Notes under the pieces: generated by a model
What the model was told of the DNA's origin: nothing
Database searches by the model: none
What the model saw: the letters and a program-made list of their open reading frames with translations, nothing else
Position numbers and translations under genes: made by a program
Shown: positions 1,364 to 33,396 of the stretch, one piece after another
How the letters are laid out: each line of letters opens with the position of its first letter
Numbering within the stretch: the first letter of the stretch is position 1
Assembly: GCF_001465835.2 (NCBI RefSeq)
Contig: NZ_CP013661.2
Location: 1,418,501-1,482,500, forward strand
DNA from: Planococcus kocurii
GTDB taxonomy: Bacteria; Bacillota; Bacilli; Bacillales_A; Planococcaceae
Length of the DNA stretch: 64,000 nt
Direction of reading: 5' to 3'

Positions 1364-3175
1364 ATGGTTACAAGTTTACCCCCGCGTTCAACTATACCCG
1401 TCGAAGAGACATGGGATTTATCCAGTTTATACAACAGCTCTGACAATTTCAATCTGGCCTTAGAAAGTCTCGAGCAAGAAGCCGAAGATCTAAACCAAAA
1501 ATTCCAAGGGCAAATTGTCAATGCGTCTACTATCATTTTAGTGTTAACAGACTACATGGCTTTTCTAGAAAAGTTAGTATTGTTAAGCACTCATGCAAAT
1601 TTGTCAGCCAGCACAGATCAAACAGACGATAAGGCTCAGCTGCAATCTAGTAAGTTTGGCGCAGCTGCCGCTAAAATTGGCAGCACACTTTCTTTTATTA
1701 CTAGCGAACTTCTCACTTTGCCGAAAGAAACAGTAGAGCAAGCAATAGAAGAATCAGCAGAATTTAACGTATTTCTTAAAAAACTTCTCCGAAAAAAACC
1801 TTATCAACTGCATCCAGAAGCAGAAAAAAGCTTGGCCGCTTACTCATCGACATTTAACGCACCTTATGGCCTTTACAATACAACAAAAATGGTCGATATG
1901 AACTTTGAGGATTTTGAAGTAAACGGTCAACAGTATCCACTTAGCTATGTCTCTTTCGAAGGGGATTGGGAAGCAGAACCGGATACAGAAATTCGTCGTG
2001 CAGCATTTGACGCTTTTTCAAAAAAACTAAAAGACTATCAGCATACGACGGCTAAAACTTACGATATACAATTGCAGACGGAAAAAACAACAGCAGATTT
2101 ACGTGGTTATGACAGTATTTTTGACTACCTTCTTTTTAACCAAGAAGTAAATCGCTCTCTTTATGATCGCCAAATTGATTTAATCACAAAGGAACTTGCA
2201 CCTCATATGCAAAAATACGCCAAACTATTGCAGAAAGTCCATGGACTGGATCGGATGACTTTCGCCGATTTGAAAATTTCGTTAGATCCGAGCTACGAAC
2301 CCGAAATTACGGTTGAAGAATCCAAACAATATATCGATGATGCTCTTGCCATTATGGGTCCGGATTATATTGAAATGGTCGATCGCTCTTATTCTGAAAG
2401 ATGGATCGACTTTGCCCAAAACAAAGGGAAATCTACCGGCGCTTTCTGTTCGAGCCCTTACGGAAATCATCCCTATATTTTAATTTCTTGGACTGGTCGC
2501 ATGAACGAAGTCTTTGTGCTGGCTCACGAACTTGGCCACGCGGGTCACTTCTATAATGCCAACCGAGAGCAGAACATTCTTAATGCCCGGCCGTCTCTTT
2601 ATTTTATCGAAGCACCTTCTACAATGAATGAAATGCTTGTCGCTAATCATTTATTGAAAAATTCGGGAGACCTGAAATTTAAACGCTGGGTAATTTCATC
2701 AATCGTCGCTAGAACCTATTATCATAACTTCGTTACACACTTACTTGAAGCTGCTTATCAGCGCAAAGTGTATGAACGGATTGATGCGGGGCAAAGCGTC
2801 AATGCGGGAATTCTGAATACGATTAAACGCAGTGTTCTGGAAGAATTCTGGGGAGATGCTGTCGACATTACAGATGGCGCTGAATTGACGTGGATGCGTC
2901 AGCCTCACTACTACCTCGGCTTATATCCGTACACTTACAGCGCGGGATTGACCATTTCCACTCAAGTATCCAAGCGAATTCTAAATGAAGGACAACCAGC
3001 CGTAGATGAATGGTTGGAAGTTTTAAAAGCCGGCGGCACTAAATCACCAGTAGAACTTGCACAGATGGCTGGAGTCGATATCACGACAGAACAACCATTA
3101 CGCGACACGATTTCCTATATCGGAGAATTGGTTGACGAACTCGTCCGTCTTACTAACGAAATCGAAGCGGAATAA
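1364..3175 (+). CDS. pepF: M3B family oligoendopeptidase (PepF-like)
   Basis: A 603-residue cytoplasmic zinc peptidase that cleaves short peptides. The zinc site is visible: HELGH at residues 388-392 gives two His ligands and the catalytic Glu, and Glu416 in the following EAPSTMNE segment is the expected third ligand. The length is normal for PepF. There is no signal peptide. The ATG has a GAGGAGAG ribosome site and an upstream promoter at 1293-1321. The gene stands alone; one base after its stop codon a cluster of structured repeats begins. The family assignment is secure; whether it is the main PepF or a paralogue cannot be told from this window. Confidence 0.92.
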   Translation: MVTSLPPRSTIPVEETWDLSSLYNSSDNFNLALESLEQEAEDLNQKFQGQIVNASTIILVLTDYMAFLEKLVLLSTHANLSASTDQTDDKAQLQSSKFGAAAAKIGSTLSFITSELLTLPKETVEQAIEESAEFNVFLKKLLRKKPYQLHPEAEKSLAAYSSTFNAPYGLYNTTKMVDMNFEDFEVNGQQYPLSYVSFEGDWEAEPDTEIRRAAFDAFSKKLKDYQHTTAKTYDIQLQTEKTTADLRGYDSIFDYLLFNQEVNRSLYDRQIDLITKELAPHMQKYAKLLQKVHGLDRMTFADLKISLDPSYEPEITVEESKQYIDDALAIMGPDYIEMVDRSYSERWIDFAQNKGKSTGAFCSSPYGNHPYILISWTGRMNEVFVLAHELGHAGHFYNANREQNILNARPSLYFIEAPSTMNEMLVANHLLKNSGDLKFKRWVISSIVARTYYHNFVTHLLEAAYQRKVYERIDAGQSVNAGILNTIKRSVLEEFWGDAVDITDGAELTWMRQPHYYLGLYPYTYSAGLTISTQVSKRILNEGQPAVDEWLEVLKAGGTKSPVELAQMAGVDITTEQPLRDTISYIGELVDELVRLTNEIEAE

Positions 3176-3176
3176 C

Positions 3177-3295
3177 GAAAAGCGTAAGCGCCCGTGTAGA
3201 TTCGACGGGCATAAGACAAACCGGCGAAGCGGCGCACTTTGCCGCACAGCTGGGTTGGCTTATGTCCCTAGAATCTGGGCGCTGGAGTCTGGACA
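3177..3295 (+). repeat. Nested-hairpin repeat, copy 1 (119 bp)
   Basis: The unit begins GAAAAGCGTAAGCGCC and ends GGCGCTGGAGTCTGGACA. It can fold as three nested stems: an outer stem AGCGCCC (3187-3193) with GGGCGCT (3277-3283); a middle stem GGGCATAAG (3207-3215) with CTTATGTCCC (3259-3268), with one bulged base; and an inner stem GCGGC (3229-3233) with GCCGC (3241-3245). It starts one base after the pepF stop codon, in the same orientation as pepF. It is much richer in GC than its surroundings. Confidence 0.85.
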
Positions 3296-3297
3296 TA

Positions 3298-3418
3298 GAA
3301 AAGCGCAAGCGCCCGTGTAGGTTCGACAAGCGCTGGAAGCTTGGGCAGTCATGGCGTTTTTCAGCCATTAGTGGCCAAGCTGAAGCGACTCGAGGGGCTG
3401 GGCGCTGGAGTCTGGACA
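3298..3418 (+). repeat. Nested-hairpin repeat, copy 2 with a different core
   Basis: The ends match copies 1 and 3 (GAAAAGCGCAAGCGCCC at the start, GGGCGCTGGAGTCTGGACA at the end) but the middle of about 75 bases is unrelated. The replaced middle still forms nested stems: AGCTTGG with CCAAGCT, and ATGGC with GCCAT around a T-rich loop. The overall architecture is kept while the sequence is not. Confidence 0.8.
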
Positions 3419-3422
3419 ATAA

Positions 3423-3541
3423 GAAAAGCGCAAGCGCCCGTGTAGGTTCGACGGGCATAAGACAAACCGGCGAAGCGGCGCACTTTGCCGCACAGCTGGG
3501 TTGGCTTATGACCCTAGAATCTGGGCGCTGGAGTCTGGACA
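3423..3541 (+). repeat. Nested-hairpin repeat, copy 3
   Basis: This unit is nearly identical to copy 1 over 119 bases, with only a few substitutions (for example GTAGG for GTAGA and ATGACC for ATGTCC). The same three nested stems can form. Confidence 0.85.
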
Positions 3542-3542
3542 C

Positions 3543-3560
3543 AAAAAAGCGCAAGCGCCC
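3543..3560 (+). repeat. Truncated fourth copy of the nested-hairpin repeat
   Basis: Only the first part of the unit, AAAAAAGCGCAAGCGCCC, is present before the sequence runs into the shared terminator at 3572-3608. Confidence 0.7.
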
Positions 3561-3571
3561 CAAAGTCTAAA

Positions 3572-3608
3572 AAAGAGCCTTACGCAAAGTAGCTGCGTAA
3601 GGCTCTTT
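3572..3608. terminator. Bidirectional terminator between pepF/repeats and the NCS2 permease
   Basis: A perfect 15-bp stem (3572-3586 with 3594-3608), a 7-base loop, and A and T runs on opposite sides, so it can stop transcription from both convergent genes. Confidence 0.85.
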
Positions 3609-3614
3609 CCATTT

Positions 3615-4895
3615 TCATTTTTTCTGCCACAATAATAGCTGCTCTACAGCAATGGCGATAATGGTACCGGTGATTAAACCATTTGATAACGTAGCTGCCA
3701 CAACAGAAGGCAAGTTCGCCATGCTTTCAGTCGGTACAAACATGATGCCAACACCGCTCATCAGACCAAAAGCTACTACTTTATAAGCACGCTGTTTATT
3801 TGTTTCATATTCTAGTTCAATAAAGGCCATTTCCACCATTTTGGTGAATACTGCAAAAATGACAGCGTACGCTACCGGCGCTGGCAGCGAAGCAAGAATT
3901 GCCATGATATCCGGAAAAAAACTAATCAACACAACAATCACACCGCCAAAGATAAAAGGCTTTAGCGCTGGTGTTTTCGTGGCACTAACAAACCCAGCCG
4001 CTCCAGAAATAGGTACAGGTCCAATTGAAGAAAATAATCCAGCAATAATATGATTGATTCCTGATGCTACGGATGCTTGCTTAATACGATCGGGTACCTC
4101 AATTGAAAAAGAATTCTTCAAAACACTCTCCATCACACGAATTGATGCCATCATATTGGCAATCAGCAAAATCGTCAAAAACAAGGCTGTGACGAACATC
4201 CCACTATCCCAAATCAACGGTCCAAAAACTAACATTTCCGGCATGGAAATTAAGTCACTAGTGGTGTTTTCAGCTTCTGGCAATTTGCCAATCACCCAGA
4301 AAATCAACCAACCTGCAGCAATTGCAAACAAAACAGAATAACGGCTAACCCAAGCTGCTTTGTGATTCATAAAAAAGAAAGTCAATACGATGATCACAAT
4401 ACTGCCTATTAGTACGACCCCATCCACTGGGTCGCCTTCTGAAACGATTCCAAATAGGCCAGTCAAAATCGACTCACTAATTTGAAGCACCAACAATAAT
4501 AAGTAAACAAAAGTAATGGTTGGTGTAAAGAGGACTTTCAGCTTATCAACTAAGCCTGTATAAGCAAACACAATAAACAAAACACCACTGTATAATAAGC
4601 CGCTTTGCAACGCTTGGAGAGATGCTTCCATAGTTGAATATAGTATTCCAACCAAACTCGCATAAACAATGAAAACTCCCCACCATAACCCGGCCGGTCC
4701 TTCATTAATTGGCACTCGGTGCCCGATAAACGCTTGTACTAAACAAGCAATTCCGAGTACGAATATAGTTCGTTGCACAAATAATGCCGCATCTGTCGTG
4801 TCCATACCGAAGATGCCGGTAATTGCGACTGGTGCTGCAATGGAAGAGGCGATCAGGAAAACCGCCCATTGCACTCCACCAAAAATATTTTTCAT
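3615..4895 (-). CDS. NCS2-family purine/pyrimidine permease
   Basis: A 426-residue inner-membrane protein with about 12-14 hydrophobic segments, of the nucleobase:cation symporter-2 family (uracil, xanthine, uric acid and related bases). The family segment VPISGAAGFVSATKT, near two thirds of the chain, corresponds to the substrate-site half-helix region. I place the start at the ATG at 4895 (MKNIFGGVQW), which has GTGGAG 9 bases upstream; a longer frame to 4943 begins with an unsupported GTG. No salvage enzyme is adjacent, so the substrate is unknown. A terminator lies just upstream (4963-4992), so it has its own promoter or reads through. It differs clearly from the xpt-linked permease at 31-32 kb. 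Confidence 0.85.
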   Translation of the reverse strand: MKNIFGGVQWAVFLIASSIAAPVAITGIFGMDTTDAALFVQRTIFVLGIACLVQAFIGHRVPINEGPAGLWWGVFIVYASLVGILYSTMEASLQALQSGLLYSGVLFIVFAYTGLVDKLKVLFTPTITFVYLLLLVLQISESILTGLFGIVSEGDPVDGVVLIGSIVIIVLTFFFMNHKAAWVSRYSVLFAIAAGWLIFWVIGKLPEAENTTSDLISMPEMLVFGPLIWDSGMFVTALFLTILLIANMMASIRVMESVLKNSFSIEVPDRIKQASVASGINHIIAGLFSSIGPVPISGAAGFVSATKTPALKPFIFGGVIVVLISFFPDIMAILASLPAPVAYAVIFAVFTKMVEMAFIELEYETNKQRAYKVVAFGLMSGVGIMFVPTESMANLPSVVAATLSNGLITGTIIAIAVEQLLLWQKK

Positions 4896-4962
4896 AATCA
4901 ATTTCTCCACTTCTTGGCTGTTATCAATGATTACAGTATACACCTATTGAAACATAAAAAAA

Positions 4963-23063: not shown

Positions 23064-23122
23064 GATAAGGTAAAGTAAGCTATGAACCCGACTAAGCTAT
23101 TAAAAGAGAAAGAAGGTTGCTC

Positions 23123-23683
23123 ATGAGAAATTTCGGTTTGTCCATTCGCGAAAAAAGTATTGTCTGCATCGGATTTATGGGAGTGGGAAAAACCACTGTT
23201 GGCAAACTGTTAGCTCAAAAACTCTATCGTAGCTTTGTTGATATCGATGAGGAAATCGAGAAGTTTTATACAATGCCAATTCCGAAAATATTCGAAATCC
23301 ATGGCGAACAGGCCTTCCGGGCTAAAGAGAAAGAGTTGATTGTAAAGTATAGCCAGCGCCCTCTCAATATCATTTCCGTTGGTGGCGGTGCCTTTTTGCA
23401 AAAGGAGATTCAGGATATTTGTATGGCCAATTGCATCGTTCTATTTCTCGATATTTCCTGGGAATCATGGAAAGAACGTATTCATATTCTCGCTGACAAC
23501 CGTCCTTTGTTACAGGGACGTTCTCTTGAAGATATCGAAATGCTATTTCTAGAACGGCAACGTATTTACTCATTAAATCATTCTAAATTTCAAGTAGATC
23601 ATTTTGAGGCAGAAGAAGCCGCTGATTACTTGGCAGATGCTTTGAAGTTATCATGGGAAATTAATGCGCCCCAACCGAAATAA
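23123..23683 (+). CDS. aroK: Shikimate kinase
   Basis: A 186-residue P-loop kinase that phosphorylates shikimate in the chorismate pathway. The Walker A loop GFMGVGKTT is at residues 17-25, the shikimate-binding VDID at 39-42 and Arg66 (FRAKE), GGG at 87-89, and the lid segment DNRPLL later. I choose the ATG at 23123, with AGAAGG 6 bases upstream, over a TTG two codons earlier. Some 20 extra residues at the C-terminus are not family-specific. It is a single gene with its own terminator; no other aro gene is near. Confidence 0.88.
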   Translation: MRNFGLSIREKSIVCIGFMGVGKTTVGKLLAQKLYRSFVDIDEEIEKFYTMPIPKIFEIHGEQAFRAKEKELIVKYSQRPLNIISVGGGAFLQKEIQDICMANCIVLFLDISWESWKERIHILADNRPLLQGRSLEDIEMLFLERQRIYSLNHSKFQVDHFEAEEAADYLADALKLSWEINAPQPK

Positions 23684-23692
23684 TACCAGAAG

Positions 23693-23717
23693 CCGCCATA
23701 TAGACTTGGCGGTTTTT
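23693..23717 (+). terminator. Short terminator of shikimate kinase
   Basis: CCGCCA (23693-23698) with TGGCGG (23707-23712), followed by five T. Confidence 0.65.
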
Positions 23718-23722
23718 CATAT

Positions 23723-23790
23723 GGCAAAAAGCGCCGCTTCGTCAGACCGTCTTATACCTGTCAGAGCTCTACAGGCACTTCCGCTTTTCT
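23723..23790 (-). repeat. Truncated nested-hairpin repeat, second locus
   Basis: A 68-base unit identical to 23844-23911. On the minus strand it starts AGAAAAGCGGAAGTGCC and stops inside the inner hairpin (GCGGCGCTTTTTGCC), so the second half of the element is missing. Confidence 0.85.
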
Positions 23791-23911
23791 TTGTCCAGAC
23801 TCCAGTGCCTAGCTCTTCGGGATATAAGCCTTTCTGACTGTGCGGCAAAAAGCGCCGCTTCGTCAGACCGTCTTATACCTGTCAGAGCTCTACAGGCACT
23901 TCCGCTTTTCT
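23791..23911 (-). repeat. Full nested-hairpin repeat, second locus (121 bp)
   Basis: On the minus strand it begins AGAAAAGCGGAAGTGCC, overlapping the TAG stop of the formamidase gene by two bases, and ends CACTGGAGTCTGGACAA. The fold is the same as at 3.2 kb, with changed but still paired bases: outer AGTGCCT (23900-23894) with AGGCACT (23810-23804), middle GGTATAAG with CTTATATCC, inner GCGGC with GCCGC. Confidence 0.85.
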
Positions 23912-25229
23912 AGGAGTACTGTGCTTTTACTGTGTTTAACAACCCTGCTTTTTCTAAATAATGTTCGGGTGCGAGGAACGTGATTGTTACGACTCCTGGG
24001 TGTCGACCAATTTCAATTGACCCCGTTATGGTAGCTCGGTTCATGATTTCTGGAACTGTAACGTTAAACAGATCGGCTGCGCGTTGCAGTCCATTTTCTG
24101 TAGCATCATTCAAAGTTGGTCCTGTACCGACAAAAGAAACCGGCAGCGACTCTTCTAGCTTGTCAATATTCCATTTTTTTGCAAGCTGTTGAGCCGTCTG
24201 TCTTTCTTGTTCTGTAAAAGGTTTAGCCGTATAAGGTAGGTCTTCGACATTCGGCAAGAGAATAGGTCCCGCATTATTTAATCCTTTAACGACATGAACT
24301 TCAAGATGAACAATACCGGCAACGTCCGATGTATGTCCAGCAATTTCTCCGTCCCCTTGCATGGCATGCATATCCCCTAGATAAATCCCACCACCTGGTA
24401 CTTTCACTGGACAAATCAATACGGCTCCAGCCCGAACACGGCTGATGTCCATATGACCATCTGTCCGATGAGTTTCCAATTCTTCCTGTGTACTTGCGTA
24501 TTCGTGCGGAGCTCCGACAAGAAAAGAACCAAAATCTCCTGCATTATGTGAGTCCGGTGTCGGACGAGAAGGCGTTGTTCCGAGTTGACCTAAAAACGGC
24601 CGCATGCGTGCAATGGTTCCAACTAAATCGTGCGGTGCAAAAGTGACAATTGGATTTTGTACAGAGTTCTCAGGCGTTTTCATGTAACCCCGGCCATTTT
24701 CCGCAATTGTTTCGGCTGCTTCTTTGGATAGCGTGATTCCTACGTCGCCCTTTTCTCCAAAAAACATCGTATAGCCGTTAGTAAAAACAAATGGTGTCAC
24801 ATCCGCATCGCACTTAGCGCAGCGAATAGCTTCTTGTCCAACACCTCTAATAATGGTATCTGGATACATCGTTCCACAGCCTGGGCATTTTACCGCGATA
24901 AAAGGGTCTCCAAGAAAACGACCTTCAACAGGACTGTCATTTCCTGAGGAAGTGGCATGGGATGTTACTTCGACTGATTTAATTTTAATAACGATGCCAT
25001 CTCCCGGTTCTGCACCTTCGACATAGACGGGCAGCGTCACTTCATGCCCCCCTCGAATACAAGGCGTAATCATCGGCCCCCAACAACCTGGAGCTGTGTG
25101 GGCAATAATATGACCTCCATCTTTTATAGGACCCAACATTTCTTTTCCGGGATCTAACACGCCATCAATATACCGGTTAACTAGTAAAGTCTCGACCGCT
25201 GTTTTTTTAGCAAGTATTTTTTTATTCAT
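23910..25229 (-). CDS. Acetamidase/formamidase family protein
   Basis: A 439-residue enzyme of the FmdA/AmdA family, which hydrolyses formamide, acetamide or similar short amides to ammonia and an organic acid in the cytoplasm. Family segments include HTAPGCWGP, SHNAGDFG, LGDMHAMQGDGE and the C-terminal GRHPGVVTITF. An inserted zinc-ribbon-like pair, CPGC at 115-118 and CAKC at 137-140, is visible. A G-rich ribosome site (GGGGGTAGGGAA) precedes the ATG. The transporter gene lies 132 bases upstream on the same strand, with a terminator between. A structured repeat starts at the stop codon. Confidence 0.9.
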   Translation of the reverse strand: MNKKILAKKTAVETLLVNRYIDGVLDPGKEMLGPIKDGGHIIAHTAPGCWGPMITPCIRGGHEVTLPVYVEGAEPGDGIVIKIKSVEVTSHATSSGNDSPVEGRFLGDPFIAVKCPGCGTMYPDTIIRGVGQEAIRCAKCDADVTPFVFTNGYTMFFGEKGDVGITLSKEAAETIAENGRGYMKTPENSVQNPIVTFAPHDLVGTIARMRPFLGQLGTTPSRPTPDSHNAGDFGSFLVGAPHEYASTQEELETHRTDGHMDISRVRAGAVLICPVKVPGGGIYLGDMHAMQGDGEIAGHTSDVAGIVHLEVHVVKGLNNAGPILLPNVEDLPYTAKPFTEQERQTAQQLAKKWNIDKLEESLPVSFVGTGPTLNDATENGLQRAADLFNVTVPEIMNRATITGSIEIGRHPGVVTITFLAPEHYLEKAGLLNTVKAQYS

Positions 25230-33243: not shown

Positions 33244-33305
33244 GAATTCGAAAGGAAACAACAAGAATAGACACCTAAAAAGGCCCAATCCTTCTGTTTC
33301 GTTGC

Positions 33306-33377
33306 TTCTCATAGTCAGTTTATTTAAGGTAAACTGGTAGAAACTTGCGAGCCATATTCTCGCTGTTATATGAGTGA
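33306..33377 (-). promoter_or_regulatory. Purine riboswitch aptamer, guanine/xanthine operon type
   Basis: On the minus strand the segment reads CACTCATATAA, a P2 arm with ATATGGC, CAAGTTTCTACC, a P3 hairpin closed by GTTTA/TAAAC, then GACTATGAG. This matches the purine riboswitch consensus at the core positions. P1 is CTCAT/ATGAG. The discriminating base is C (GACTATG rather than GATTATG), which specifies guanine. It controls xpt-pbuX. Confidence 0.92.
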
Positions 33378-33396
33378 ATCGTATTTGAATGGTCTT

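Follow-up and report, generated by a model that had tools for sequence, protein, structure and literature searches.

Hairpin repeats at stop codons: a dispersed, structured repeat family in Planococcus kocurii and related bacteria

Two arrays of a repeated hairpin were found in the window, a 64,000-nucleotide stretch of Planococcus kocurii DNA (contig NZ_CP013661.2), and they belong to a much larger family. The unit folds on its sense strand, its arrays are concentrated at stop codons, and the presence of arrays differs between orthologous sites. We propose that the unit, a hairpin about 118 nt long whose internal loops are fixed, represents a new family of non-autonomous, dispersed repeats of the REP/bcr kind, that its RNA hairpins would be carried mostly in 3′ UTRs, and that they probably affect the decay or processing of mRNA 3′ ends. 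We put the probability of this reading at a little under one half (about 0.48).

Architecture of the arrays

The array that follows the formamidase gene extends from 23912 to 23723 on the minus strand and consists of a TAG stop codon and a full unit followed, after 3 nt of linker, by a partial copy. The stop codon (23910–23912) ends a gene of the acetamidase/formamidase family (23910–25229, minus strand; Pfam PF03069, 158 bits, above cut-off; NCBIfam FmdA, 43.7 bits, under its cut-off of 500), and its G doubles as the base preceding the AAAAGC with which the unit begins. The full unit, running for 118 nt from AAAAGC to GACA (23792–23909, minus strand), scored 118.6 bits (E = 1e-32) with R1, a covariance model built on 38 non-redundant units of the genome holding the window (G000). 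Its fold had a z-score of −5.4, and none of 200 shuffles was equally good. The 3′-truncated copy (23723–23788, minus strand) is identical to the first 66 nt of the unit and gave a weak R1 match of 15.9 bits over 23677–23788; compared over 68 nt each, the two copies at this locus were 100% identical. Sequence and model together thus confirmed the claim, originally made from the letters alone, that a full and a truncated copy start at the formamidase stop codon on the minus strand. A convergent gene of the shikimate kinase family lies on the plus strand (23117–23683; Pfam PF01202, 142.9 bits; NCBIfam shikimate kinase models under their cut-offs). On its strand, an intrinsic-terminator-like hairpin with a T-run occupies 23692–23717; the segment 23691–23722 folds at −12.9 kcal/mol and is followed by TTTTT.

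The second array in the window lies on the plus strand behind the gene for oligoendopeptidase F (pepF, 1364–3175; TIGR00181, 617 bits, above cut-off). Unit 1 (3178–3295; R1, 130.2 bits) begins 2 nt past the TAA stop codon. Unit 2 (3299–3418; R1, 65.9 bits) has the same outer stem and another core, as read from the sequence, and unit 3 (3424–3541) scored 129.4 bits. A 3′-truncated copy, read from the sequence as a 16-nt match (3545–3560), closes the array. An intrinsic-terminator-like hairpin was read at 3575–3608 on the plus strand, and a convergent purine/pyrimidine permease gene occupies 3615–4943 on the minus strand (NF037981, 632 bits, above cut-off). Two open frames cross this array, 3153–3563 on the minus strand and 3262–3570 on the plus strand (136 and 102 aa), and are likely spurious products of the repeat. 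Elsewhere in the window, a purine riboswitch aptamer (RF00167, 80 bits) was found at 33292–33393 on the minus strand; the ORFs downstream of it are presumably a purine phosphoribosyltransferase-like gene and a permease-like gene.

A search of G000 with R1, in which 150 of 672 candidates were scored, yielded at least 80 sense copies with scores from 48 bits upwards, and at least 108 rows at E ≤ 0.1 when antisense echoes and weak matches were included. We tabulated 41 arrays, leaving out weak matches in L193, L194, L195 and one in L192 and including two arrays composed of partial units only (L125, L139). Full units in G000 are 114–121 nt long and start with AAAAGC or AAAAGT. In 29 of the 41 arrays (31 under a looser rule) the last element is a partial unit, 10 nt or longer, that restarts at this motif. 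Under a strict rule for unit starts, the linker suffix held in common was 6.2 nt within arrays (40 arrays) compared to 2.1 nt between arrays. Likewise, the sequence just ahead of the first unit matched the array's own first linker over 3.06 nt compared to 1.90 nt for other linkers (p = 0.0002, 66 arrays), a match that is accounted for equally well by tandem duplication as by target-site duplication. We infer that arrays are remodelled by duplication and exchange; multi-unit arrays and their partial copies would arise via local duplication and unequal exchange.

Several variant units were also observed. In core-swapped units (3299–3418 of the window; L130, 3340–3459; L235, 2686–2804; L239, 2415–2533) the array-specific outer stem or junction is retained and the inner hairpin is entirely different. 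Mini units of about 47 nt, comprising the outer stem without the core, are present at L194 (2153–2199), L234 (2515–2561) and upstream of the array at L139. Locus L214 (1901–2506), from a genome of another family (G382), carries a tandem array of four units, each about 147 nt long, in which the ends are the same and the core is different.

The fold and the strand on which it is maintained

Ninety-two unit starts were collected, 55 of them with a recognised end; units of 112–125 nt were kept and 7 were added by hand. Dropping near-identical units of the same locus and five core-variant or deleted units left 39, of which 38 form alignment A1, one near-duplicate having been omitted by hand. The consensus fold of these 38 units contains 36 pairs, 26 of them with two-sided changes. 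In A1, which was aligned on sequence only, 97.2% of the cells paired compared to 85.6% in shuffles, and two-sided changes in kept pairs occupied 179 cells. The corresponding count averaged 51 in shuffles and did not exceed 27 with slid partners. The sequence-only reading had named compensated changes at two pairs of the outer stem and one pair of the middle stem, and all three are present in this alignment. The formamidase unit has U-A instead of C-G at pairs 12-108 and 16-104, and the change of CATAAG/CTTATG to TATAAG/CTTATA places a U-A at pair 34-90, a state found in 2 of the 38 units.

Covariation was tested with a script of our own, similar to R-scape and not R-scape itself, that uses an APC-corrected G statistic. 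The null was simulated column by column on a FastTree tree, matching the number of changes, and recombination is absent from it. Thirteen of the 36 pairs covaried at E < 0.05 against this phylogenetic null in the 38 units, with all five helices represented. One of the significant pairs, 43-81, was non-standard in 11 of the 38 units, and three extra significant pairs fell inside or beside helices. A second alignment, A2, was obtained by aligning 150 of 165 matches from several genomes to the model, and 93 units were left after rows more than 93% alike had been dropped. In this model-fitted alignment 20 of the 36 pairs were significant, and helix 1, of 2 bp, contributed none. Five other pairs were also significant, among them 31-97 in a conserved internal loop; the covariation of these two non-helical columns suggests a non-canonical contact.

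Six pairs of units from matching genes were compared, and standard double changes were found in two of them. In the formamidase comparison, of G000 with G176, two pairs (35-89 and 48-76) show A-U to G-C double changes, and one pepF comparison, of unit 2 with unit 1 and of uncertain orthology, yielded three double changes. The other four pairs had no standard double change, with one broken pair each in L137/L233 and G188/G189. Among one-sided changes in matched units, 9 of 11 kept a standard pair. From the covarying pairs in every helix of the 38 units and the double changes between the G000 and G176 formamidase units, we conclude that the fold is kept by selection, as had been argued from the three compensated pairs.

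Covariation of this kind could instead reflect the exchange of whole hairpins between arrays by gene conversion, with pairing itself under no selection. Units of the same array do swap cores and keep their array-specific outer stems or junctions (L126, L235, L117). However, the relatedness null, itself free of recombination, was exceeded in all helices, the orthologous G000 and G176 units differ by double changes at two pairs, and exchange moves existing paired variants rather than creating them. We consider it quite improbable that hairpin exchange explains the result.

The strand was indicated by the balance of tolerated pairs. G-U outnumbered A-C by 86 to 4 in A1 (38 units) and by 168 to 11 in A2 (93 units), or by 50 to 4 once three doubtful pairs were excluded; as the structure was chosen on the sense strand, these counts carry a slight bias towards G-U. 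In addition, the sense strand folded better than the antisense strand in 37 of the 38 units. Because the proportions of G-U and A-C would be reversed on the opposite strand, the large excess of G-U indicates that pairing is maintained on the sense strand. This argues for folding as RNA or as single-stranded DNA of that strand, and hairpins in such DNA could give the same bias.

Placement relative to genes

In G000, 23 of the 41 arrays begin 0–6 nt past a same-strand stop codon, compared to 2.2% expected for the same 0–6 nt span if intergenic position and strand were random (p = 1e-27). The array at L129 begins 2 nt inside the stop codon and was excluded from these 23, bringing the stop-adjacent arrays considered below to 24. 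Similar placement was seen for 12 of 16 arrays in G044 (p = 1e-16) and for 5 of 12 in G382 (p = 6e-6), with expectations of 2.2–2.5%; the arrays of these two genomes, like those of G039 and G118, were taken from the best-scoring matches among all. Gene calls were mechanical, so small genes may be missed. These data establish that placement at stop codons is non-random.

A terminator-like hairpin followed 14 of the 24 stop-adjacent arrays within 170 nt and was found behind 51 of 132 other genes, a difference that was not significant (p = 0.058). At the other genes this hairpin starts a median of 12 nt past the stop codon. As terminators start near the stop, anything placed ahead of them must be close to the stop codon too, which in part explains where arrays lie and speaks against a special stop-codon signal. 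On its sense strand the unit lacks a T-run, as judged by eye, and is therefore not itself a sense terminator.

The sequence-only reading had further noted that the element follows a stop codon directly and faces a convergent gene. This holds at both loci of the window but not as a general rule, since a convergent gene faces 14 of the 24 stop-adjacent arrays, compared to a baseline of 70 of 214 (p = 0.013). Such neighbours raise the question of a barrier to antisense or convergent transcription: the opposite strand reads as a GC-rich hairpin followed by TTTTCT, which resembles a terminator, the complement of AAAAGC closing the hairpin with a T-run. The mild enrichment of convergent genes is consistent with such a barrier. 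However, base changes protect the sense fold and not the antisense one, 10 of the 24 stop-adjacent arrays face no convergent gene, and arrays also lie between 23S and 5S rRNA. An antisense terminator as the selected function was rejected on the asymmetry between G-U and A-C, and we regard the barrier explanation as unlikely.

The same 10 stop-adjacent arrays precede a same-strand gene, some within 28–50 nt, and those with close same-strand genes may sit inside operons. The remaining 17 of the 41 arrays have no adjoining called same-strand stop codon, and an opposite-strand ORF lies upstream of 13 of them. At four of the 17 (L119, L123, L125, L135) a same-strand open frame of 26–80 codons ends within 6 nt. 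Of the G000 arrays with no called stop codon, one begins 9 nt past tRNA-Sec. Another lies 30 nt past a T-box leader and 73 nt before the next same-strand gene, a position in a 5′ leader and not in a 3′ UTR. The same-strand genes that follow arrays and the T-box case fit poorly with a pure 3′-UTR rule.

Arrays were also observed in the rRNA operons of genus g3, where in three genomes they lie directly behind 23S rRNA, mostly ahead of 5S (L225–L231 in G039, L310 and L312 in G164, L165 in G110). The distance from 23S was 4–6 nt in the five loci at which it was checked (L229, L231, L310, L312 and L165), and the other G039 copies have the same 23S flank. Counting 5S matches above cut-off, arrays precede 6 of 7 5S genes in G039, 2 of 6 in G164, 1 of 7 in G110 and 0 of 8 in G021.

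Our preferred explanation is that the element spreads to, and is retained at, the 3′ edge of transcribed features, mostly directly behind stop codons, so that it would come to lie in the 3′ UTR. By analogy with REP and bcr repeats, hairpins in the mRNA would most likely hinder 3′-to-5′ decay or provide a double-strand processing site just past the last codon. A different account is that the element moves at the level of RNA and lands at the 3′ edges of mature RNAs, an RNA, possibly circular or multimeric, being copied onto transcript 3′ ends and then back into DNA. Copying of this kind would explain why the left end is sharp and the right end ragged, why several units stand in one array, and why arrays lie behind stop codons, a tRNA, a T-box leader and 23S rRNA, yet we give this account little chance of being correct.

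Spread across genomes and relation to known repeats

Judged by its formamidase, G000 has its closest named relatives in Planococcus. The element was found in 70 of 121 genomes of the host's bacterial family, representing 13 of 19 genera. It was present in 176 of 250 genomes drawn from the order, all from the host's family among the matches listed, and in 38 of 299 genomes (20 of 118 genera) of the class. A blastn search of a plasmid collection with one unit-containing query gave no match.

Presence differed at orthologous sites. The formamidase gene is present in 35 of 46 genomes of the genus, and 5 of 30 fetched loci had model matches at E ≤ 0.001. The array lay behind the gene in three of the 30, and in two it was on the other strand, starting (by eye) at the stop codon of the convergent kinase gene; 25 had no match at this threshold. 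All 46 genomes contain pepF, and 6 of 30 fetched pepF loci had matches at E ≤ 0.001. Among the loci listed, many of the empty ones, but not all, have a short spacer between stop and terminator; at L255 the reading towards the stop codon appears to be out of frame. At 11 loci (10 shared by G000 and G044, one by G000 and G118) arrays sit at matching positions in both species; these loci were chosen since both genomes carry arrays there, and unit number or cores differ between the two. As orthologous sites differ in the presence of an array, the element spreads, behaving as a mobile element in the manner of a bcr1-like MITE.

These observations bear on the main rival to the 3′-UTR reading, a selfish single-stranded-DNA element: a recombinase would recognise folded single-stranded DNA of one strand, and insertions would survive best just behind genes, as the least harmful sites. 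The uneven occupation of orthologous loci, the array-specific junctions, the partial units that end most arrays, and the antisense orientation of some copies to the nearest ORFs are all in keeping with it. On the other hand, 11 loci, picked for carrying arrays in both genomes, hold them at matching positions in two species, and the tolerance of G-U and the conserved internal loops would suit RNA better than DNA. Moreover, no trans-acting gene was found among Y1 transposases, the sole family sought. We consider selfish DNA a real possibility, though not the probable one.

The Y1 search addressed the REP/RAYT system, in which the genome's Y1 (RAYT) transposase would move the element. G000 encodes two RAYT-like Y1_Tnp proteins (PF01797) of about 201 aa (L031 and L032; C2:2588014-2588349 and C2:2531546-2531878), which speaks for this explanation, but no array lies within 50 kb of either gene. 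Across 121 genomes there was no co-occurrence of element and Y1 (both in 44, element only in 26, Y1 only in 31, neither in 20; p = 0.85), counting Y1 matches that may include IS200-type proteins other than RAYT. Furthermore, three genomes of the same genus as G000 that lack a Y1 match (G044, G058, G112) carry at least 30 copies each, and a fourth (G007) carries 6. The co-occurrence result largely refutes a REP/RAYT transposase as the mover, which we rejected and consider very improbable.

The element nevertheless invites comparison with REP. According to PMC12306157, REP sequences of Escherichia coli are extragenic palindromes, and some of them lie no further than 15 nt from a stop codon: 446 of 4,072 in that paper's own set and 260 of 496 in an earlier one, which it cites as acting in translational regulation. 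The same paper reports that REP near the termination codon leads to ribosome stalling and mRNA cleavage. The likeness lies in extragenic hairpins near stop codons. In contrast to REP palindromes, given as 20–40 bp in part of PMC3733652, the unit described here is about 118 nt, its arrays consist of tandem units plus a partial one, and no Y1/RAYT association was seen. Nor was the GTAG/CGTC end tag of REP/BIME visible by eye at unit ends, which begin AAAAGC or AAAAGT; GTAG is internal to many units and missing from others (e.g. L119, L137).

A second comparison is with bcr1–bcr18 of the Bacillus cereus group, described in an excerpt of PMC3446304 as dispersed intergenic repeats, of which about half of the copies are transcribed, often in UTRs. 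There, the presence of bcr3 was correlated with mRNA decay rate (3.6 and 2.5 in a table row there). Both families are dispersed intergenic repeats; the bacteria differ, and the likeness drawn here is one of description. The element would resemble REP and bcr repeats in its working but falls outside REP in size, end tag and RAYT association, and for that reason we file it as a new, REP/bcr-like form of dispersed structured repeat.

Known RNA families were compared as well. The window units had no Rfam match at gathering thresholds, and 23690–23930 had none at E ≤ 10. Six other array loci gave ten Rfam matches, none covering a unit. A known Rfam family was therefore rejected for the units tested, those of the window and the six loci. 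Bacillaceae-1 RNA (RF01690) is a structured RNA of related bacteria, as described in part of PMC2864571; the window units and the six array loci gave no match to its 67-nt model, and the RF01690 copies in L221 and L224 lie apart from arrays. At L313 (1323–1495) an RF01690 copy (1363–1429) is nested in the apical part of a unit, as if one repeat had inserted into another. Integron attC was set aside; its core-site motif was not visible by eye at unit ends. No account of this repeat was found in titles and the openings of abstracts, in a literature sample mostly without subscription papers.

If the 3′-UTR reading is true, a large group of RNA structures is present in the host family and here and there in its class. 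Many species would have dozens of copies in each genome, with covariation that is strong and strand-specific, and no Rfam model matched them. It would also provide a natural replicate experiment, with one hairpin standing after numerous unrelated genes and with sister species that have or lack it at the same gene. The role of REP-like repeats, and their arrival behind genes, would then become directly testable by RNA 3′-end mapping.
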